A stretch of 64,000 nucleotides of DNA, taken from positions 1,612,001 to 1,676,000 of the forward strand of contig CADCXA010000055.1 of the NCBI GenBank assembly GCA_902806565.1. Reading direction: 5' to 3'. The notes beneath the pieces are model-generated. The model worked only from the letters and a program-made list of their open reading frames with translations, had not been told where the DNA came from and did no database searches. The stretch's first letter is position 1; every line of letters begins with the position of its first letter. The stretch comes from Hypoxylon rubiginosum. Its lineage: Eukaryota; Ascomycota; Sordariomycetes; Xylariales; Hypoxylaceae. Both the position numbers and the translations under genes were made by a program. Below are positions 4,608 to 13,309 of this stretch, in pieces.

Positions 4608-7600
4608 TTACCCTTGTTTGTCTTCCCAATCCCCATCTTCTATGTATTGAGAACTCGTGCCTATATTCATGATAGAATCTGTCGTCTGGCTTGCAACTTG
4701 TCGATATGACCAGATGCGGGCTCTTCCATCCCTAGAACTAGTGGCAAAGTAATTCCCTGTCGGACTTGTTGCTATAGAGAAAACAGAGTTGGTACCACTC
4801 TGAAGCACCAGCTGCTTAGTACCAGTTCGCCGGTCCCAGAACCGTATAGTGCAGTCACTAGAGCCTGACAGAATCCAATTTCCGTCGCGCGTAATAGCGA
4901 CGCTCGTAACAAGGTCCTATAGTTGTTAACTCAAGTTGGATCGGGTAACCTTTTAGAGTGAAAGACTTACTTCATGTCCACGAAATATTCCCACGCAACT
5001 ACCTTCTCCAGAATGATCCCATGTCTTGATCTTATTGTCTAGACCGCAACTGGCAAGCAAACTACTATCAGGGGTGAAAGCAATACAGTAAATGCTCCCC
5101 TCATTGTCTCCAGGTTCCTTTAGGTAGCTTAAAGCTTGTCTGGTAAGAACATCCCAGACAATAATTACACATCTTTCAGAACCGGTGGCCACCAGCCGGC
5201 TGTTTGGAGATATGGCAACAGAAGTAACACCACTGATAGCAAATGTGAATATGCTGTTATCCTGCCCGACGTCCCAGAGCTGAGCGATATTAACGTTGTT
5301 AATAGACGCAATTAACCGTCCGTCCCGGGAGAAGTCGAGTGAACAGAAAAAGTGTCGGTCATCCCGAAAACTTTTACAGGTCTCTTGGGTCTCGAGATCC
5401 CAAACCTAAAATAATCAAGTCAGTATGAAGATGAAGCAACTACCGGAGAATCCTTCCAATAAATATCTCGTAAAATTAGCTTACCTTAAGAAACCCATCT
5501 TGAGTCCCGGTAGCAAGGTGCCTTCCATTTGGACCAAATGACATGCTACAAATATTGCTCACGAGCTGTAGCGCACAGATCGTCTCGCCGGAGCGTACTT
5601 CGTAAACACGAACAACCATGCCATGCACAGTGGCAAGAAATTCACCGCAATGACTAAATTTGACATACCCGACTGCACTCTCATGGTTTAATGTGTGAAC
5701 TATTTCAGTATCAAGTACCGGTATGCGGGGATCATGCTGGTCAAAGATCGCGAGCCAGTCACCCTTCACCTTGACATGAGCCGGGAGGCGAATATTGCGC
5801 ATCAGCATAGGTGACTTCACAATCACTGGAAGAAACTCTTCTAGTAACTCCTGAATTGCCGGTAGCAATAGCGCAGATGACCTCTCAATTGCTGGCAGTA
5901 ATGTAACAGGCGATTTCTTAATTGCGGAAAGCAACAATGATGTTAATTGCTGCAATAAGTCAGGCATTTTCGCAATTGCTAACAACAGCATGTCGACGCA
6001 TTTCGCAATCGTTGGTAGTAGTAAGTTGGGAAATCGTTCCATCTCGTGATGCAATGAATCGGGCGATTCTTTAGCTACAAAAAGCAAGGTATTAGGTATC
6101 TTCATCATTGCTTCCGGTGGTAGCACCTCCGGTGGCAATAAGCCATGTGACGAATGGATCGTGAGTCCTATCATGCTAATAGAAGATGCTGCAGTCTCAA
6201 CAAGCAGCATATCAACGATAGTTGAATGGCCCTGATAAGCAGCTCTTGCCAGAATTCCTCCATCAAACAAGATCTGGGGTTGATTCTGTTGCAAGAGATA
6301 TTGAACAACGGCAACATGCCCTTCAATGCAAGCGTAACCAAAGGGCGTTGTTGGCCGCATAGAGTTTGTATTCTTACAGCCCTGTGGATGGTATCCCAAA
6401 AGCCAATTAGTTTCGACCTTTCCCGTTTCAAATAGCAACTTGACAATGTCCAAATGGCCAAGCGCACATGCCTCACCAAATGGCGATACCCTCAAAGGGC
6501 CGGTGGTATCAGGGGAACATCGTTCCTCGCTAACAAAAAGACGAACGATGTCTAGGTCGCCAACTCGCACCGCTGCGTGTACCTAGTGCCGTTTCGCCAC
6601 ACCCTTCAATGCTATTGATAGAAGCACCTCTTTCTATAAAAAACTTGCAAATATCGAAGCAACCAGATTTTGCTGCCTCATAAAGTGGAGTGTATCCATG
6701 AACTGGAGGGTATCGGGATATAGATCTCTGTTTTTCAATGGGAAATCCGGAATCGACTAGCGTTCTGACTGTAGCTAAATCACCATTCTCGATGGCAGCC
6801 CAGATAGATATTTTCTTTTTGCTGTTGGCGATTTTGGGGAATTCCAATCCGTCATCTGGTTCAGGATGATGATGTTTCATGTGCTTGTGCAGTTTTAACT
6901 GATTGTCGTACCCCAGCTTGAACGCAAAGCAATCATCTTTGGGGCAAGAGAAAGGAAGATCATGTTGGTCAGCATGCCGCTTACGATTTTCAATGCTCTC
7001 AAATCCGGCTGTGAAAAACTCGCACCATGGCTTAGAGCATTTGAAAAGCGCGGTTGTTCCGTGTAGGCAGGTGATAACCTCTTGGACTGCGGGATCTAGA
7101 ACATCTTCTTTAATAGCCTCTATTCTCTTTCGAATTGCGGCTGTTCGAAATTCAATACTGAAATACGCGTTTCGCTCGTTTCCGTTTTGTGGAAGATCAT
7201 TGAGAATACGTGCAACCTCGTCGTGTTTCCTAACACAATCAAGCTGTTTTACTTTTGACGCAAGGCCATATGATATCAAGAAATCTCGTGCCGATTCCAT
7301 TGCTTCCTTAAATAGGTTTGGGTCTAATGCTGTCGCTTCGTCGAGACACTTTCGAAAATGGTCGAACCAATACTGGACAGCGTAGTCTTGGAGAGCATAG
7401 TATCCCTTGATTGCATATGCGATGATGTCTTTATCGTCTATTACCAATGCAAATGGGTTTGATGTTAGATATCTCGAACAAAAAATAGCAAGTCTGGCAT
7501 GGCTGTGACAGGTGTTGAGCCAACTTCTCCGGATTAGATATCTTCATAAGTTAGCCAATGTCTAATTGCTATGTACGAGAACTTACTCTCGAGCAGTCTC

Positions 7601-9813
7601 ATGGACAATTTTGATGATGTCTTCGGGGCCGGCCTTTTGAATGTTCGCCTGGTGCACATCGACAAGAGAACCGCATAGATGTTTGCAAGTAACCACAAGC
7701 TTACTCCCCTCATAGTCAACATTCCCGGTAACTGGGTCGATGCAGAAAAGGGACTGGATCTCGCGCCACCGCAGAAGCCGCCTGGCACAGGTGATCCAAC
7801 CTAAAATCTTCGTTGCATCATCGCGTTCGTCAGGCGACGAGTTTTCAAATACTCGCACAGCAACTCTTTCATATCTGGAGCAGTGAATTAGTAAAGCCAT
7901 GCATCTAACACCAACGATTCTGAGGTTAGCTACACTTACGCCTTTTCGATCCCTTGCGGGAATGTACCAGGCTCAATCTCTTGCCTCAAGCGGGACAACT
8001 TCGTCTGGCCTAACAGATTTCTCAGGACAACACGGGCGTAGAGGAACATGCCTATGATAGTATCAGCATCGTCCGAGAGCATATAGAGACTTCCTAGATA
8101 CCTTGTGCTCCATTTGTAACACGGGAAACGATATCCTCCTTCATTTCTACCGGAATGTCGAATTTTTCTCTTATTTGTTCGCATAAATTTCGACAGTATC
8201 GGTTGATATCCTCAACGTGACCAGACGTTTCCAAAGAGATTGAAGGTCGGTCTGCAAGCATCTTGTCTAAAACACCATCTCGTTGACCGCAGAATAATAC
8301 ACGTAGTGTAGCAGTGGTGTTATCAAAGCCTCCATCTACGAGAGATAAGAACCATTTGATTGACTTCGAGGCTTCCCCTGGAGCGCACTCGTCCAAGCCA
8401 TCAAGTATGACATATGAGAAACGATAGCTCTCTAAAGCAAGCTTTACCAGCTTCTGAAGGGTTCCCGTTGACCGTAATCCTGTTCCTTCAACGGGCGACA
8501 TGTCGGGGAAGAGGTGGTCGGATATATCGGGGTCCTGGTTGACGAGTTGGTCTAGTATTGCTCGGAGAAAACCATTGAATGTTTCCTTGTCTTGCTGCTT
8601 ATGCTTGAAGTAGAAATAAGCTACGCAATGCCTATCCACCCAAGAGCGATTCTCATCCAGTAGTTTCTCAATGACGGCAGACATTAAGGTCGTCTTGCCT
8701 AAATCGCTGTGAGCTTCTCATCACCCGTGCCAGAAGATACCTAACCTACCTGCACCTGGTATTCCGTTAATATATAGGACGCTGTGGTCGGTTGTGTCAT
8801 TTCTAGACCAAGCTTGGAAGTCGGAACGTTCAAATATCCACGTCCCTGAATTGTAACCTTGCCTATCCTCCGTAGCGATTTCTTGGTCAATCTGATAATT
8901 CGGAGCCTGCAACTTTTCCCTGATTAAAGATACCCGTGCCTTGTGTTTCTCTAGGTTTACTTGAGCCATCAATTGCTTTTGCTCTGTCCGCATAGCCGAA
9001 ACGTCCCGGCGAAGTTTATGGATCTCATAGAGTGTTGCCGAGCCTTTCTCACTTTCTAGTAACTCACGTCGGCTTCTCAGACTGTGCATAATCGGTTTGA
9101 ACTTGCTGTCAAAAGTTTTCCAGGTCGAATGAAACATCTCTTTCCATTCTACAGAATTTCAGCATCTGCATCCACCAGCGTATGAGATTAGTCAGGGAAA
9201 GGAGGAGGGTTGCCTACTAGGTCGTTTGAAGACGGAGAGTGCTGCTTGATGGAACTCCAATATGTCGGAATAGTAGTCCTCGAGGACAGTAGCTAGAGGA
9301 GGGTGCTCCTCGAATGTGGTCTGGTACCGCAGAAGGCCGGGAACGGCTTCTCCCACTTGCGCATAGACATCGAGCAGCTTATCAAAGGAATCCAGATATG
9401 TTCTCGCAATCTAAACCAAAAAAAAATTGTTAGATGCTCGGTACCAGAGATGAAGATACTATCGTATCTACTCACATTAAGTACGAACTTGATCGGTCCC
9501 TTGTGTCTATCAGCAGCTGTTGCTAGTGACGAATATAGTGATTGTCACTTACCCATATGAAACATACGAACTCATTTGCATTCACGAACACTTCAACCAC
9601 CTTGCCGAGCTGATCCATGGCCTCGATAAAAGCTTGAAGCCGCCGCATGTTCCGCAGCTTTCCTTCCTGTCCGTGCCTCTTTTGAATGTCTCCACAGGCA
9701 TTGCGGACATCTTCCAACGTGCAGAGCGAGAATTGATAGGCTATACCTGGGGAAATAGATTGCTTGAATCGCTCGAGAGCCCGCTGGAAGGCATCTACAT
9801 TTGGACCTGCCAT
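4608..9813 (-). CDS. NACHT-ankyrin-WD40 NLR with Tup1-like propeller (frame broken)
   Basis: Ten exons: 9813-9553, 9499-9476, 9410-9218, 9148-8750, 8698-8102, 8051-7940, 7874-7587, 7526-5485, 5405-4971, 4916-4608. Discounting four extra bases at 6580-6583 gives 1551 residues. Order: DUF7708-like N-terminal region (about 1-290, including FKRPKWKEMF); NACHT with Walker A GIPGAGKTT split by an intron (about 290) and Walker B VILDGLDEC (about 390); two C2H2-like fingers (about 780-850); ankyrin repeats (about 860-1045); 11-residue LLLPAI-type repeats (about 1110-1200); WD40 propeller to the end. The propeller, its leading linker (GDWLAIFDQ) and its end (RARIWSYR) resemble the Tup1/RCO-1 corepressor. 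Fungal STAND proteins of this kind act in non-self recognition and programmed cell death; the role here is inferred. The four-base shift in the ankyrin region would truncate the protein before the repeats and propeller. Confidence 0.85.
5800..6065 (-). repeat. Degenerate 33-bp (11-residue) coding repeat in the NLR
   Basis: Successive units read NLLLPTIAKCV, DMLLLAIAKMP, a shortened DLLQQLT, SLLLSAIKKSP, VTLLPAIERSS, ALLLPAIQELL and EEFLPVIVKSP. The period is 11 residues with conserved L-L-L-x-A/T-I-x-K. This is a hendecad-like amphipathic pattern between the ankyrin repeats and the propeller. Confidence 0.75.
6580..6583 (-). other. Four-base frameshift in the NLR ankyrin region
   Basis: On the coding strand the frame reads G-C-G-E-T-A-L, and four bases (GGTA) later resumes in another frame as H-A-A-V-R-V-G-D-L-D-I-V-R, the expected ankyrin continuation. 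Without these bases the ten-exon total is 4656, exactly divisible by three. The only GT-AG pair nearby would give a 10-base intron, which is not credible. This is either a real null allele or a sequence error. Confidence 0.8.
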
Positions 9814-10355: not shown

Positions 10356-13309
10356 ATGGCTAATCATGAAATCTGTTATGGTGCAGTAAGTCATTCTATA
10401 TTTCAGAAAAATCTTTCTCGTCTCTCATACCTTTACTATCTATAGCTATATGATGCGTCGGCCAAGGTCATAAGCAAAGCTAGATTGTCAGATTTATCTG
10501 GTACTGAAAGCTTCGAGTCGTTCACCACATTCTGCCTCGAATCCCGAGATGATTTCTTTATGCTCAGCTCCGACACTGGTACCGAACTTGCAATCTTAGA
10601 TACACAGACCGCTTCAAAATTGAGTGCCCTTGGAAACATATCAACGGTGCGATTTGCAGCCATCGTCCAGTCTAATATTCTTACGAAGCGTCAGAAGCGA
10701 AGCAACCCTGGGTTGCAAGTATTTTCACTGTCCATTAATATCTTAGGGGTAAAATCAGCTGCAGATGCTGTTAGCCGCCAACTCTCAAAACTTTCAGCCT
10801 ATCTCCAACATCCCGAGTCGTTGCAGATAGGTATCGAATATCACAACCCACAGTTTCTCACATTTGGCGACGAGAATATAAATATGAATGAACTTATTGG
10901 CATGGGAAATAACTACCACTGGAATTCGAAAAATAAGATATCAGAAGAGATTGGGAACATATTTGAGTCGCTTGGAAATGTGACAGTAGGGAAAAGCTCG
11001 CTACCATTCGAAGGGCTGACTTCGATACTGAAAAGGTAAGTATTAAATGAACAAGTGGTATAATGACTATGCTGATGAAAAGCAGGCATCAAGAGGATGG
11101 TTTGCATTTTATTCTCCAACGGGAAGACGAAGAGTTTGGCAAGCAACTCTCAGCACGATTAAGTCAAGCTATTGCAGTTCAGTACGCAACACTAGCTATT
11201 TCTTGCACTGGAGATTTTGGCTGATAGGTATACAGAGTCGACCAGCTCCACCCAACGTCTCTTGGTGGGTTTGTCGCAGACGTGATGGGGCTTGGGAAGA
11301 CACTCACCATGCTCTCGGCCATTTTGCATTCCGCGCCAAATGCAGAACTCTTCGGTACCTTTTACAAGAGGTTCGAAAATGACAACGTAGAAAGGTTTCG
11401 GACAAAAGCAACTTTAGTAGTTGTATCGTCAGCACGTAAGTCGGAAGAAGTCATGCATCTGATGATGTTCTGACCGCATGCAGAACTTATTGAAAGCTGG
11501 GAATCCGAGATACAGGCGTGAGTCATCTTTATTTTATCTCTCACCTCTTTAAGAACAAATCACTGATTTTAATAGTCATTTTGTCCCAGGAGCCCTAAGA
11601 TTCATACGTTTTCATGGCACTGGTCGGCCTCGAGACCCGGAAGTTTTGAGGTCGGTTGACCTAATCTTGACTACCTACGCGACACTAGCCGCGGATCATG
11701 CCGGTCAAGATATCCTCCGCCAGGTGGAATGGTATCGCGTAGTACTAGATGAAGGTATATGTTACATGATGTCTTATGTTAGAGGAGCTAACAGAATATA
11801 GCCCACTGGATCCGCAACTCTAGTTCTAAGCAATTCCAGGCGGCAGCGAGCCTTCACTGTAGGAGGAGATGGTGCCTGACAGGCACTCCAATTCAGAATA
11901 GATTAGAGGACCTGGTGTCTCTGGTTCAATTCCTCCAACTCCCCTTTTCGGCTAAACCAGCCTTCCAGAAACATATCTTAGGCCCGCTTTCTGGTGGAGG
12001 ACAGAACTTCGCGAAGCCTCTCCGAACCTACCTTGAGGCTTACTGTCTAAGGAGAAGCGAGAGGTGCCTTACTTTACCTGCTTCCAGGCAAACATGCGTG
12101 TCACTCCAGCTTTCATCCGAAGAGCAACGCCTGTACGATGCGGTACTGGACAATACGAGGCGGCAGGTTGATTCCCTCGTCAGTAAAGGGAATAAAATCA
12201 AGTGCAGCACACTTTTCACAGCAATGATCAAGATGCGCATGTTATGCAATCAGGGAACATTCTCAGGAGTCAAAGACAGCGTAGCTTCTCCAGGGCGGTC
12301 ACATTCGGAAATCAGATGTGAACGCTGTTCAACTACGGACGAAGACAACATCATGCTTCTGGATAGCTGTGCTTTTTGCCCAGACTGTGGGCGTCCATTA
12401 CAGGCACCTAACCCCTCCTCATACACTATCAATACTCAGGCATATTCAGCAAGTGGCCAAAGAAGCGATGCAAGTCCCAGTGATGATGGCCCTATGAGTG
12501 GCACTAACGACACTTTTCAAACCCTGGTAGATGCAAGGAATCCAATTCCACCAAGCCGCGTTTCGACAAAGCTCTCTGCCGTGGTTGAAAACGTGATACA
12601 TGGTGGTTTCAAAGCGAAGAGGTAGGTAATCTATCTATGCTTGGAGCGGACCCAGCTAATTTGGCTAGTATAATATTTTCCTACTGGACATCAACATTAG
12701 ACATCCTCTCCCAGCTTCTCGAAGAGGCAGGCGTTCCATACCTCCAGGTGGATGGGCGGGTAAACTACAAGGACAGATCTACACGCCTCAAGGACTTTAA
12801 GGAAGACGCGCAGGTCCTTGTCCTGCTTATGTCTATCGAAACTGGTGCAGTCGGGTATGCTTATTCCTTGACACATCTCCTTTTGCCTAGATAACTACCT
12901 AACCATCGCACGCCAGACTTAACCTCACAGTTGCGAATCAAGTGCACATCGTCGAGCCCCAGTGGAACCCGTCGGTGGAAGAACAAGCCGTTGCGCGAGC
13001 CCTGAGAATGGGCCAGATTAGAGAAGTCACAATTTTTCGCTACGTTATGGAGAAGACGGTAGAGCGGGTGAGACCTAAACTTGACGTCCCCCTTGCGGTT
13101 TCGATCACGGCTAATCCCTAATAGAATATCATAGATCTCCAGCAGAGGAAGAAAAAGCTCGCGAAGTTCACCTTTGACACAGGGGCTAGGGACGGTGTTT
13201 CCGAGACGCTAAAGGTAAGGTATCAATCACTAACTTTTAATATTCCATCCATGTCTTTCTAACAACGACGCAGGATCTCAAAACTGTTCTAGATCTAAGT
13301 TCCAAATAG
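10356..13309 (+). CDS. SNF2-family ATPase, Rad5/HLTF-like
   Basis: Eleven exons: 10356-10385, 10446-11035, 11086-11181, 11236-11435, 11484-11517, 11576-11754, 11802-12621, 12669-12854, 12917-13067, 13125-13214, 13274-13309. They total 2412 bases (803 residues). Helicase motifs in order: I GLGKTLTM, II LDEAH, III LTGTPIQN, then in the second lobe FSYWTSTLD, VDGRV, TGAVGLNLT and VI QAVARALRMGQ. Between the lobes is a Cys cluster (CERC ... CAFCPDC) where Rad5/HLTF/Rad16 proteins usually have a RING finger; here it looks reduced to a zinc-knuckle-like element, so ubiquitin-ligase activity is doubtful. The ~240-residue N-terminus (CYGALYDASAKV...) is typical of fungal HLTF-like proteins. The family remodels chromatin or stalled forks using ATP. 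Motif VI has Ala-Leu-Arg where His-Arg is usual. Confidence 0.85.

Follow-up and report, generated by a model that had tools for sequence, protein, structure and literature searches.

Where does a fungal receptor obtain the propeller at its end, and what would such a propeller sense? This question is raised by a gene of Hypoxylon rubiginosum that lies on the minus strand at positions 9813-4608 of the window, i.e., the whole stretch of 64,000 nucleotides analyzed here. The gene has ten exons and encodes, in this order, a DUF7708 domain, a NACHT domain, a winged helix, a pair of zinc fingers, ankyrin repeats and a seven-bladed propeller, as a NOD-like receptor (NLR) might. A first-pass annotation had proposed that the propeller was taken from Tup1/RCO-1, and that the receptor is an integrated decoy. 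Tup1 is a global corepressor. Our analyses agree with the first proposal and only partly with the second: we consider it probable that this is a frame-broken NLR-type allele whose Tup1/RCO-1-type propeller likely derives, by capture, from the corepressor gene of the same cell and would be the ligand-sensing end of the protein. The propeller end of the gene comprises the following features:

5677..5790, minus strand: Tup1-type linker RLPAHVKVKGDWLAIFDQ...LNHES before the propeller (linker profile 27 bits)
4701..5706, minus strand: seven-bladed Tup1/RCO-1-type propeller with the end RARIWSYR (alignment with native rco-1, Tup1 profile, introns)
5406..5484, minus strand: propeller intron 1, phase 0, at the position of a native rco-1 intron
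4917..4970, minus strand: propeller intron 2, phase 0, at the position of a native rco-1 intron
4608..4700, minus strand: C-terminal tail after the propeller, and stop codon

The genome (48.3 Mb in 70 contigs) was searched for the native gene. A separate and intact rco-1 was found at C25:994283-996390, encoding 595 residues and a stop codon, with a Tup_N match of 55.7 bits and the end RARIWSYRAIS. Tup_N is the domain that joins Cyc8. A search for Tup_N across the genome gave no match, and the controls were silent as well, the domain being split by introns. Another locus, C65:393208-394180, was considered as the native tup1 and rejected; the open reading frames there look by eye like an NLR with WD40 repeats.

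The window propeller aligned with native rco-1 from end to end including the linker (RLPAHVK to RIWSYR). Its exon junctions, FLK|VWD and GHE|DLV, correspond to LIR|VWD and GHR|DFV of the native gene, all in phase 0, so both introns are at the same place and phase. When the native propeller was used as a query, the highest non-self match in the genome was the window gene (172 bits vs. 108 for the next). A Tup1 profile made from four native sequences, two of which are extended gene models (P0126 and P0127), matched the window propeller with 267 bits over positions 2-338 of 339. The other 118 WD40-rich proteins reached at most 200 bits, and among the eight top-scoring controls listed the match began at position 83-87 in seven and at position 42 in one. 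On a linker-only profile the 118 controls scored at most 2.0 bits and the other searched WD40 reading frames of the genome 0.9 bits. The blades share a mean identity of 25% (highest 38%). Among 60 listed PDB matches, the highest-scoring single-stretch ones were 5afu_3 (175 bits) and yeast Tup1, 1erj (160 bits); chain 3 of 5afu is labelled dynein tail, yet its sequence reads as yeast Tup1 with shortened loops.

A tree of 43 propellers set 26 NLR rows, the propeller of another NLR in this genome (C41, described below), six other fusions (four of zinc-finger type and two kinases) and four native Tup1s apart from six of the 118 controls with a support of 100/99. The branching order inside the Tup1-type part was mostly not resolved. 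Because of the linker, the introns and the tree, the propeller can be traced to a named gene, and these sequence comparisons make capture from the cell's own Tup1 corepressor gene likely. The first-pass annotation was right about the GDWLAIFDQ linker, the RARIWSYR end, the strongly differing blades and the Tup1/RCO-1 type, and the three things it had suggested looking for, a tree setting the propeller with Tup1, an intact tup1 gene and the same fusion in related genomes, were all found.

A search with the receptor half of the protein gave 279 relatives, of which 120 were listed, and all counts of relatives refer to these 120. A propeller was found in 35 of them, at a threshold of 40 bits that is not specific for Tup1, and none in the other 85, some of which have short gene models. 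The linker score was at least 10 bits in 19 of the 35. In a quick tree of the receptor chassis, 34 of the 35 propeller-bearing relatives formed one clade with the window gene (SH-aLRT, the Shimodaira-Hasegawa-like approximate likelihood ratio test, 99), and the presence of the propeller required two state changes vs. a shuffled mean of 31. By organism name, the propeller-bearing relatives mostly belonged to the Xylariales, namely Hypoxylon, Xylaria, Daldinia, Annulohypoxylon, Biscogniauxia, Nemania, Ustulina, Astrocystis and Monosporascus; the lineages of four of the listed genera were looked up. Some listed Xylariales relatives had no propeller, such as Xylaria digitata P0201 and Nemania abortiva P0248. 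Two members of the propeller-bearing clade fall outside the Xylariales by name, Cosmosporella sp. VM-42 P0144 (Hypocreales) and Lasiodiplodia mahajangana P0173 (Botryosphaeriales), the latter grouping with a Nemania; transfer, loss elsewhere or misnamed records are alternative explanations for both.

The remaining propeller-bearing relative, Monosporascus sp. mg162 P0129, fell among relatives without propeller and is 38% identical to the window protein over the first 720 residues. Its propeller scored 519 bits on the Tup1 profile. Either the propeller was captured a second time, or receptors exchanged parts. The propeller tree did not decide the number of captures, since a single clade was rejected neither for the 22 main-clade rows (p-AU, from the approximately unbiased test, 0.33) nor with P0129 added (p-AU 0.30); these tests excluded three Daldinia rows, C41 and the controls. 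A second NLR of the H. rubiginosum genome (C41:457678-462110, plus strand) has similar N-terminal and NACHT parts and zinc-finger-like motifs, and no ankyrin was seen. Its propeller is strongly decayed (94.8 bits over positions 22-337, no linker score), with introns at the native places or at most two residues off.

Does the captured propeller still resemble Tup1 where partners would bind? In HET-E, positions 7, 9, 25 and 27 of each WD40 unit lie on the modelled top of the propeller and are under positive selection (PMC1805685). These offsets were fixed beforehand from that paper and placed by motif on native rco-1, which gave 28 positions; in blade 1, offsets 24 and 25 fall in one column. The face and pair tests were made on protein sequences, positions are not independent, and each p value refers to a single sequence and is given without correction. 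Of the 35 propeller-bearing relatives, 25 were selected by hand for the trees and the main face test. The ten rows outside the main test (P0140, P0141, P0152, P0154, P0155, P0159, P0162, P0166, P0173 and P0199) are mostly partial, but P0159 is nearly complete; three weak Daldinia rows were kept in, and P0001, the annotated H. rubiginosum protein, did not enter the face counts because it is the same allele as that of the window.

Native Tup1s conserve the 28 face positions better than the rest (yeast vs. H. rubiginosum, 23/28 vs. 162/276). The window propeller, however, keeps only 6 of 27 face residues, as assigned by motif register, vs. 128 of 259 elsewhere (p 0.008), so that the predicted partner-binding face, which the compared native Tup1s conserve, has suffered the greatest loss. 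Face conservation was below that of the rest in 33 of the 35 NLR propellers, including all ten additional rows, and the deficit was significant (p<0.05) in 20 of the 35 (17/25 in the main test and 3/10 in the remaining rows). P0129 keeps 19 of the 28 face residues. Among all 40,920 sets of four offsets, 7, 9, 25 and 27 ranked first for the lowest ratio of NLR to native conservation (25 NLR propellers, protein level). Seven NLR pairs that are sisters on the propeller tree were compared: identical residues stood at 57 of 185 top positions and at 239 of 429 positions of the bottom loops (Fisher test on the pooled counts, 1.4e-8). In four overlapping native pairs the relation was the reverse. The pairs P0123/P0125 (zinc-finger type) and P0121/P0122 (kinases) were examined and not pooled with the seven. 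Top positions that change faster than the loops least constrained in native Tup1s speak for more than drift, as far as protein sequences can tell. Between the window protein and that of H. cercidicola, identity decreased from 82% in NACHT to 56% in the ankyrin and 47% in the propeller.

Several observations weigh against this picture of a Tup1 propeller with a diversifying face. The window allele itself has a broken frame, as described below. Sixteen of the 35 linker scores were below 10 bits, and the Tup1 origin of these propellers rests on clade and propeller. The highest raw PDB scores belonged to multi-stretch repeat proteins (2ymu, 277 bits; 7bie, 223 bits). In the 43-propeller tree with controls, P0149 and P0158 were placed outside the other 35 rows, native Tup1s included (98/97), a position that vanishes in the tree without controls. 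A significant face deficit was lacking in 15 of the 35 NLR propellers, and both P0149 (19/28 vs. 139/273 elsewhere, p 0.11) and P0158 (18/28 vs. 124/273, p 0.07) lean to keeping the face. The top face is a predicted one, set by motif register and not by coordinates. Six generic WD40 controls also differ most from native Tup1 at these hot spots, so the evidence that divergence continues comes from the sister pairs alone; of the seven pairs, four were significant individually. The ankyrin region diverges at almost the rate of the propeller, and relaxed constraint could possibly account for the loss of the face.

P0149 and P0158 may be regarded as candidates for true decoys. A further search for long fusions, with the Tup1 linker and first blade, scored 13 candidates and reported 11; it missed P0001 and P0075 and was not exhaustive. 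Proteins without NACHT that look zinc-finger-like by eye also bear a Tup1-type propeller (P0123, P0124, P0125, P0130 and P0131, from Xylaria, Xylariales sp. No.14919 and Orbilia). The Marasmius protein kinases P0121 and P0122 display a kinase followed by two tandem Tup1-type propellers, which differ in the native face kept (22/28 and 14/25 in P0121, 14/28 and 10/28 in P0122). For P0121 the face of 22/28 compares with 148/267 elsewhere (p 0.03). Judged by eye, P0126, P0127 and P0128 appear to be native Tup1 whose gene models were merged or extended.

Is the gene that carries this propeller a receptor, and could it be expressed? The remaining features are as follows:

9553-9813, 9476-9499, 9218-9410, 8750-9148, 8102-8698, 7940-8051, 7587-7874, 5485-7541, 4971-5405 and 4608-4916, minus strand: the ten exons, compared with the P0001 gene model; frame interrupted in exon 8
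9045..9639, minus strand: DUF7708, residues 59-194 (Pfam PF24809, 52.3 bits, cut-off 25)
8289..8849, minus strand: NACHT-type NTPase, Pfam NPHP3_N, residues 260-429 (116.3 bits)
7526..7816, minus strand: winged helix (GPIID_WHD), residues 549-630 (Pfam 31.8 bits, cut-off 27)
6866..7039, minus strand: pair of atypical zinc fingers, C-x4-C-x15-H type (sequence and conservation)
6199..6817, minus strand: ankyrin repeats, frameshift near 6580 (Pfam Ank families on both sides of the break)
5791..6198, minus strand: spacer of an 11-residue leucine-rich repeat, type KSPxLLLPAIx (autocorrelation)

With a NACHT-type NTPase, an intact Walker A (GIPGAGKTT, split by the intron 8699-8749) and a winged helix, the gene has the central parts of an NLR, and every domain that the first-pass annotation had named is present. 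In the AlphaFold model of the relative P0165 the DUF7708 region is all-helical, and PDB matches of that model were dominated by the NTPase fold. A Pfam scan of the zinc-finger pair gave no match, yet when 35 relatives were aligned its residues (C-x4-C-x15-H-x3-H and C-x4-C-x15-H-x4-H) proved invariant or conserved to at least 90%. The repeat spacer between ankyrin and propeller, also without a Pfam match, showed autocorrelation peaks at lags 11 and 22, which none of 2000 shuffles equalled. It is common to H. cercidicola P0075, whereas in ten other relatives 0-35 of its 119 residues align, and it is absent from the P0001 gene model. A region encoding an SNF2-related domain lies beside the receptor gene (11792-12625, plus strand, Pfam 90.8 bits).

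The first-pass annotation overlooked that exon 8 shifts its frame in the ankyrin region near 6580. Translation of the assembled allele stops after 961 residues, with the propeller out of frame. The ankyrin and WD40 repeats are thus encoded but mostly out of frame here, and continuous in P0001 and P0075. Downstream of the break the frame is open and the splice sites are intact, through to the gene's own stop codon. P0001 has no break and is 99% identical, with 9 substitutions over 1376 aligned residues, although its gene model is without some segments of the window gene such as the repeat spacer. Because the 3' part is open and spliceable and only 9 substitutions separate it from the unbroken P0001, the break is either recent or an assembly error. 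Unless it is an assembly error, the full receptor would not be made in this strain.

How might such a receptor have arisen and work? We suggest that in an ancestor of the clade a receptor with NACHT, zinc fingers and ankyrin captured a Tup1 propeller. The propeller may first have served as a bait resembling Tup1, and later divergence would have turned it into a recognition platform. Such a decoy stage is conceivable because a few relatives keep the face; these would be its remnant if it existed. The four positions per blade, with their register taken from HET-E, would form a top face that now binds a foreign or altered ligand. Binding would release the NACHT switch, and the helical DUF7708 domain would then trigger a response, either defence or death; all three steps, sensing, switching and response, are predictions based on the family. 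A wider and more tentative proposal, which we regard as possible, is a conversion from decoy to receptor: a Xylariales NLR would have taken the Tup1 propeller as bait (once for the clade and again in Monosporascus), its face would then have become hypervariable at the HET-E positions, and Tup1 would be a hub attacked by fungal parasites or viruses. The last point is suggested because zinc-finger-type proteins (Xylaria, Orbilia) and kinases (Marasmius) captured the same propeller. Tup1 may thus be a target in fungal conflicts, and the relatives form a series from those keeping the corepressor's predicted face to those with the face replaced.

The first-pass annotation favoured an integrated decoy. 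In the strict form of this reading the propeller still mimics Tup1, so that any factor with which a parasite or virus binds Tup1 would also attach to the receptor and trip it. Part of this stands: the domain is host-derived, it comes from a global corepressor, and the free copy is retained. In P0149, P0158 and P0121 the native face is preserved no worse, or even better, than the scaffold, and in plants the corepressor TOPLESS is an effector target (PMC7446885). That the window gene still carries a working copy of the corepressor is, however, not supported, given its 6 of 27 face residues and the significant deficit in 20 of the 35 NLR propellers; by motif register, the Tup1 face was lost here and kept in some relatives. 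Among the papers listed on mycoviruses and Tup1, none describes such a factor in its title or the beginning of its abstract. Because the face was replaced in its lineage, the strict decoy reading fails for the window protein; we regard this reading as unlikely overall, and a diversifying recognition surface appears to fit the window lineage better.

Alternatively, the protein might compete with the corepressor as a transcription regulator, its zinc fingers and propeller binding DNA-binding repressors and altering expression instead of sensing invaders. The zinc fingers are conserved in the chassis, and the zinc-finger-like Tup1-propeller proteins of Xylaria and Orbilia have no NACHT. CRE1/CreA is a C2H2 protein. 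This fungal repressor was reported to interact with Tup1-Cyc8 (PMC8710005). The alternative nevertheless appears improbable, since Tup_N was not among the Pfam matches of the NLR pieces, unlike in native rco-1, the partner face is lost in the window propeller, and NACHT and the winged helix are kept as in NLRs.

A decaying gene, with a functionless propeller drifting and the frame break as a further step, would account for the break, for the Daldinia propellers scoring only 62-121 bits and, through relaxed constraint, for the lost face residues. We judge it very improbable, because the frame is open after the break with intact splice sites, only 9 substitutions separate the allele from P0001, and top positions outpace bottom loops in the seven NLR pairs. 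An ordinary WD40 sensor that merely resembles Tup1, as the 200 bits reached by generic proteins might suggest, is close to refuted by the late start of the best listed control matches, the control linker scores, the two coinciding introns and the tree, on which a generic WD40 origin was rejected.

The probable reading thus remains a sensing propeller captured from Tup1, and we searched the open-licence literature of PubMed Central (PMC) for precedents. Among the titles listed from that literature, no paper was found on a Tup1-derived NLR propeller, on DUF7708 or on Tup1 Y445C, and none joining fungal NLRs with a corepressor or NLR, Xylariales and WD40. A search for NLR, fungi, NACHT and Tup1 together gave only the HET-E paper (PMC1805685). 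The first-pass annotation had stated that it knew of no described fungal example of an integrated decoy. This needs amending: PMC12258605 proposes integrated decoys in fungal (Sordariales) NLRs, for which its leading candidate is a CHK-2/PRD-4 kinase domain; PMC5658179 is cited beside it on proposed fungal NLR decoys. Because PMC12258605 counts WD40 as a canonical repeat, captured regulatory propellers can go unseen in such surveys.

Compared with native Tup1/RCO-1 (the C25 copy and yeast Tup1, 1erj), the window NLR shares the linker and the seven blades, and with the native copy also the RIWSYR end and two intron positions. It differs in the missing Tup_N match, in being fused behind NACHT and ankyrin, and in a predicted partner face that is largely replaced.

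The chassis is the same as that of DUF7708-NACHT-zinc finger-ankyrin NLRs of Fusarium, Colletotrichum, Neurospora and Diaporthe, 34 aligned members being 33-59% identical to Diaporthe P0165; these NLRs differ from the window NLR in the propeller, which was not found in 85 of the 120 listed relatives.

The HET-D/HET-E (HNWD) NLRs of Podospora anserina are also NACHT receptors with a WD40 end, and the same four positions per blade vary (PMC1805685). Their N-terminal domain differs, and their repeats are up to 100% identical and under concerted evolution (PMC1805685), whereas the window gene has seven Tup1-type blades in fixed order with 25% mutual identity. Variation at positions 7, 9, 25 and 27, seen at the protein level across 25 NLR propellers, is therefore shared with HET-D/E, and the window protein lacks the near-identical repeats. 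The comparison suggests that diversification at these positions, as in the shuffled HET-E repeats, can also occur in propellers of fixed order. High internal conservation is found in a share of fungal NLR repeats, 21.6% of WD repeats (PMC4986451).

With the putative CHK-2/PRD-4 decoys of Sordariales NLRs (PMC12258605) the window NLR has in common a host regulatory domain at the C-terminal end and a free gene that is kept; the domain is a kinase there and a corepressor propeller here.

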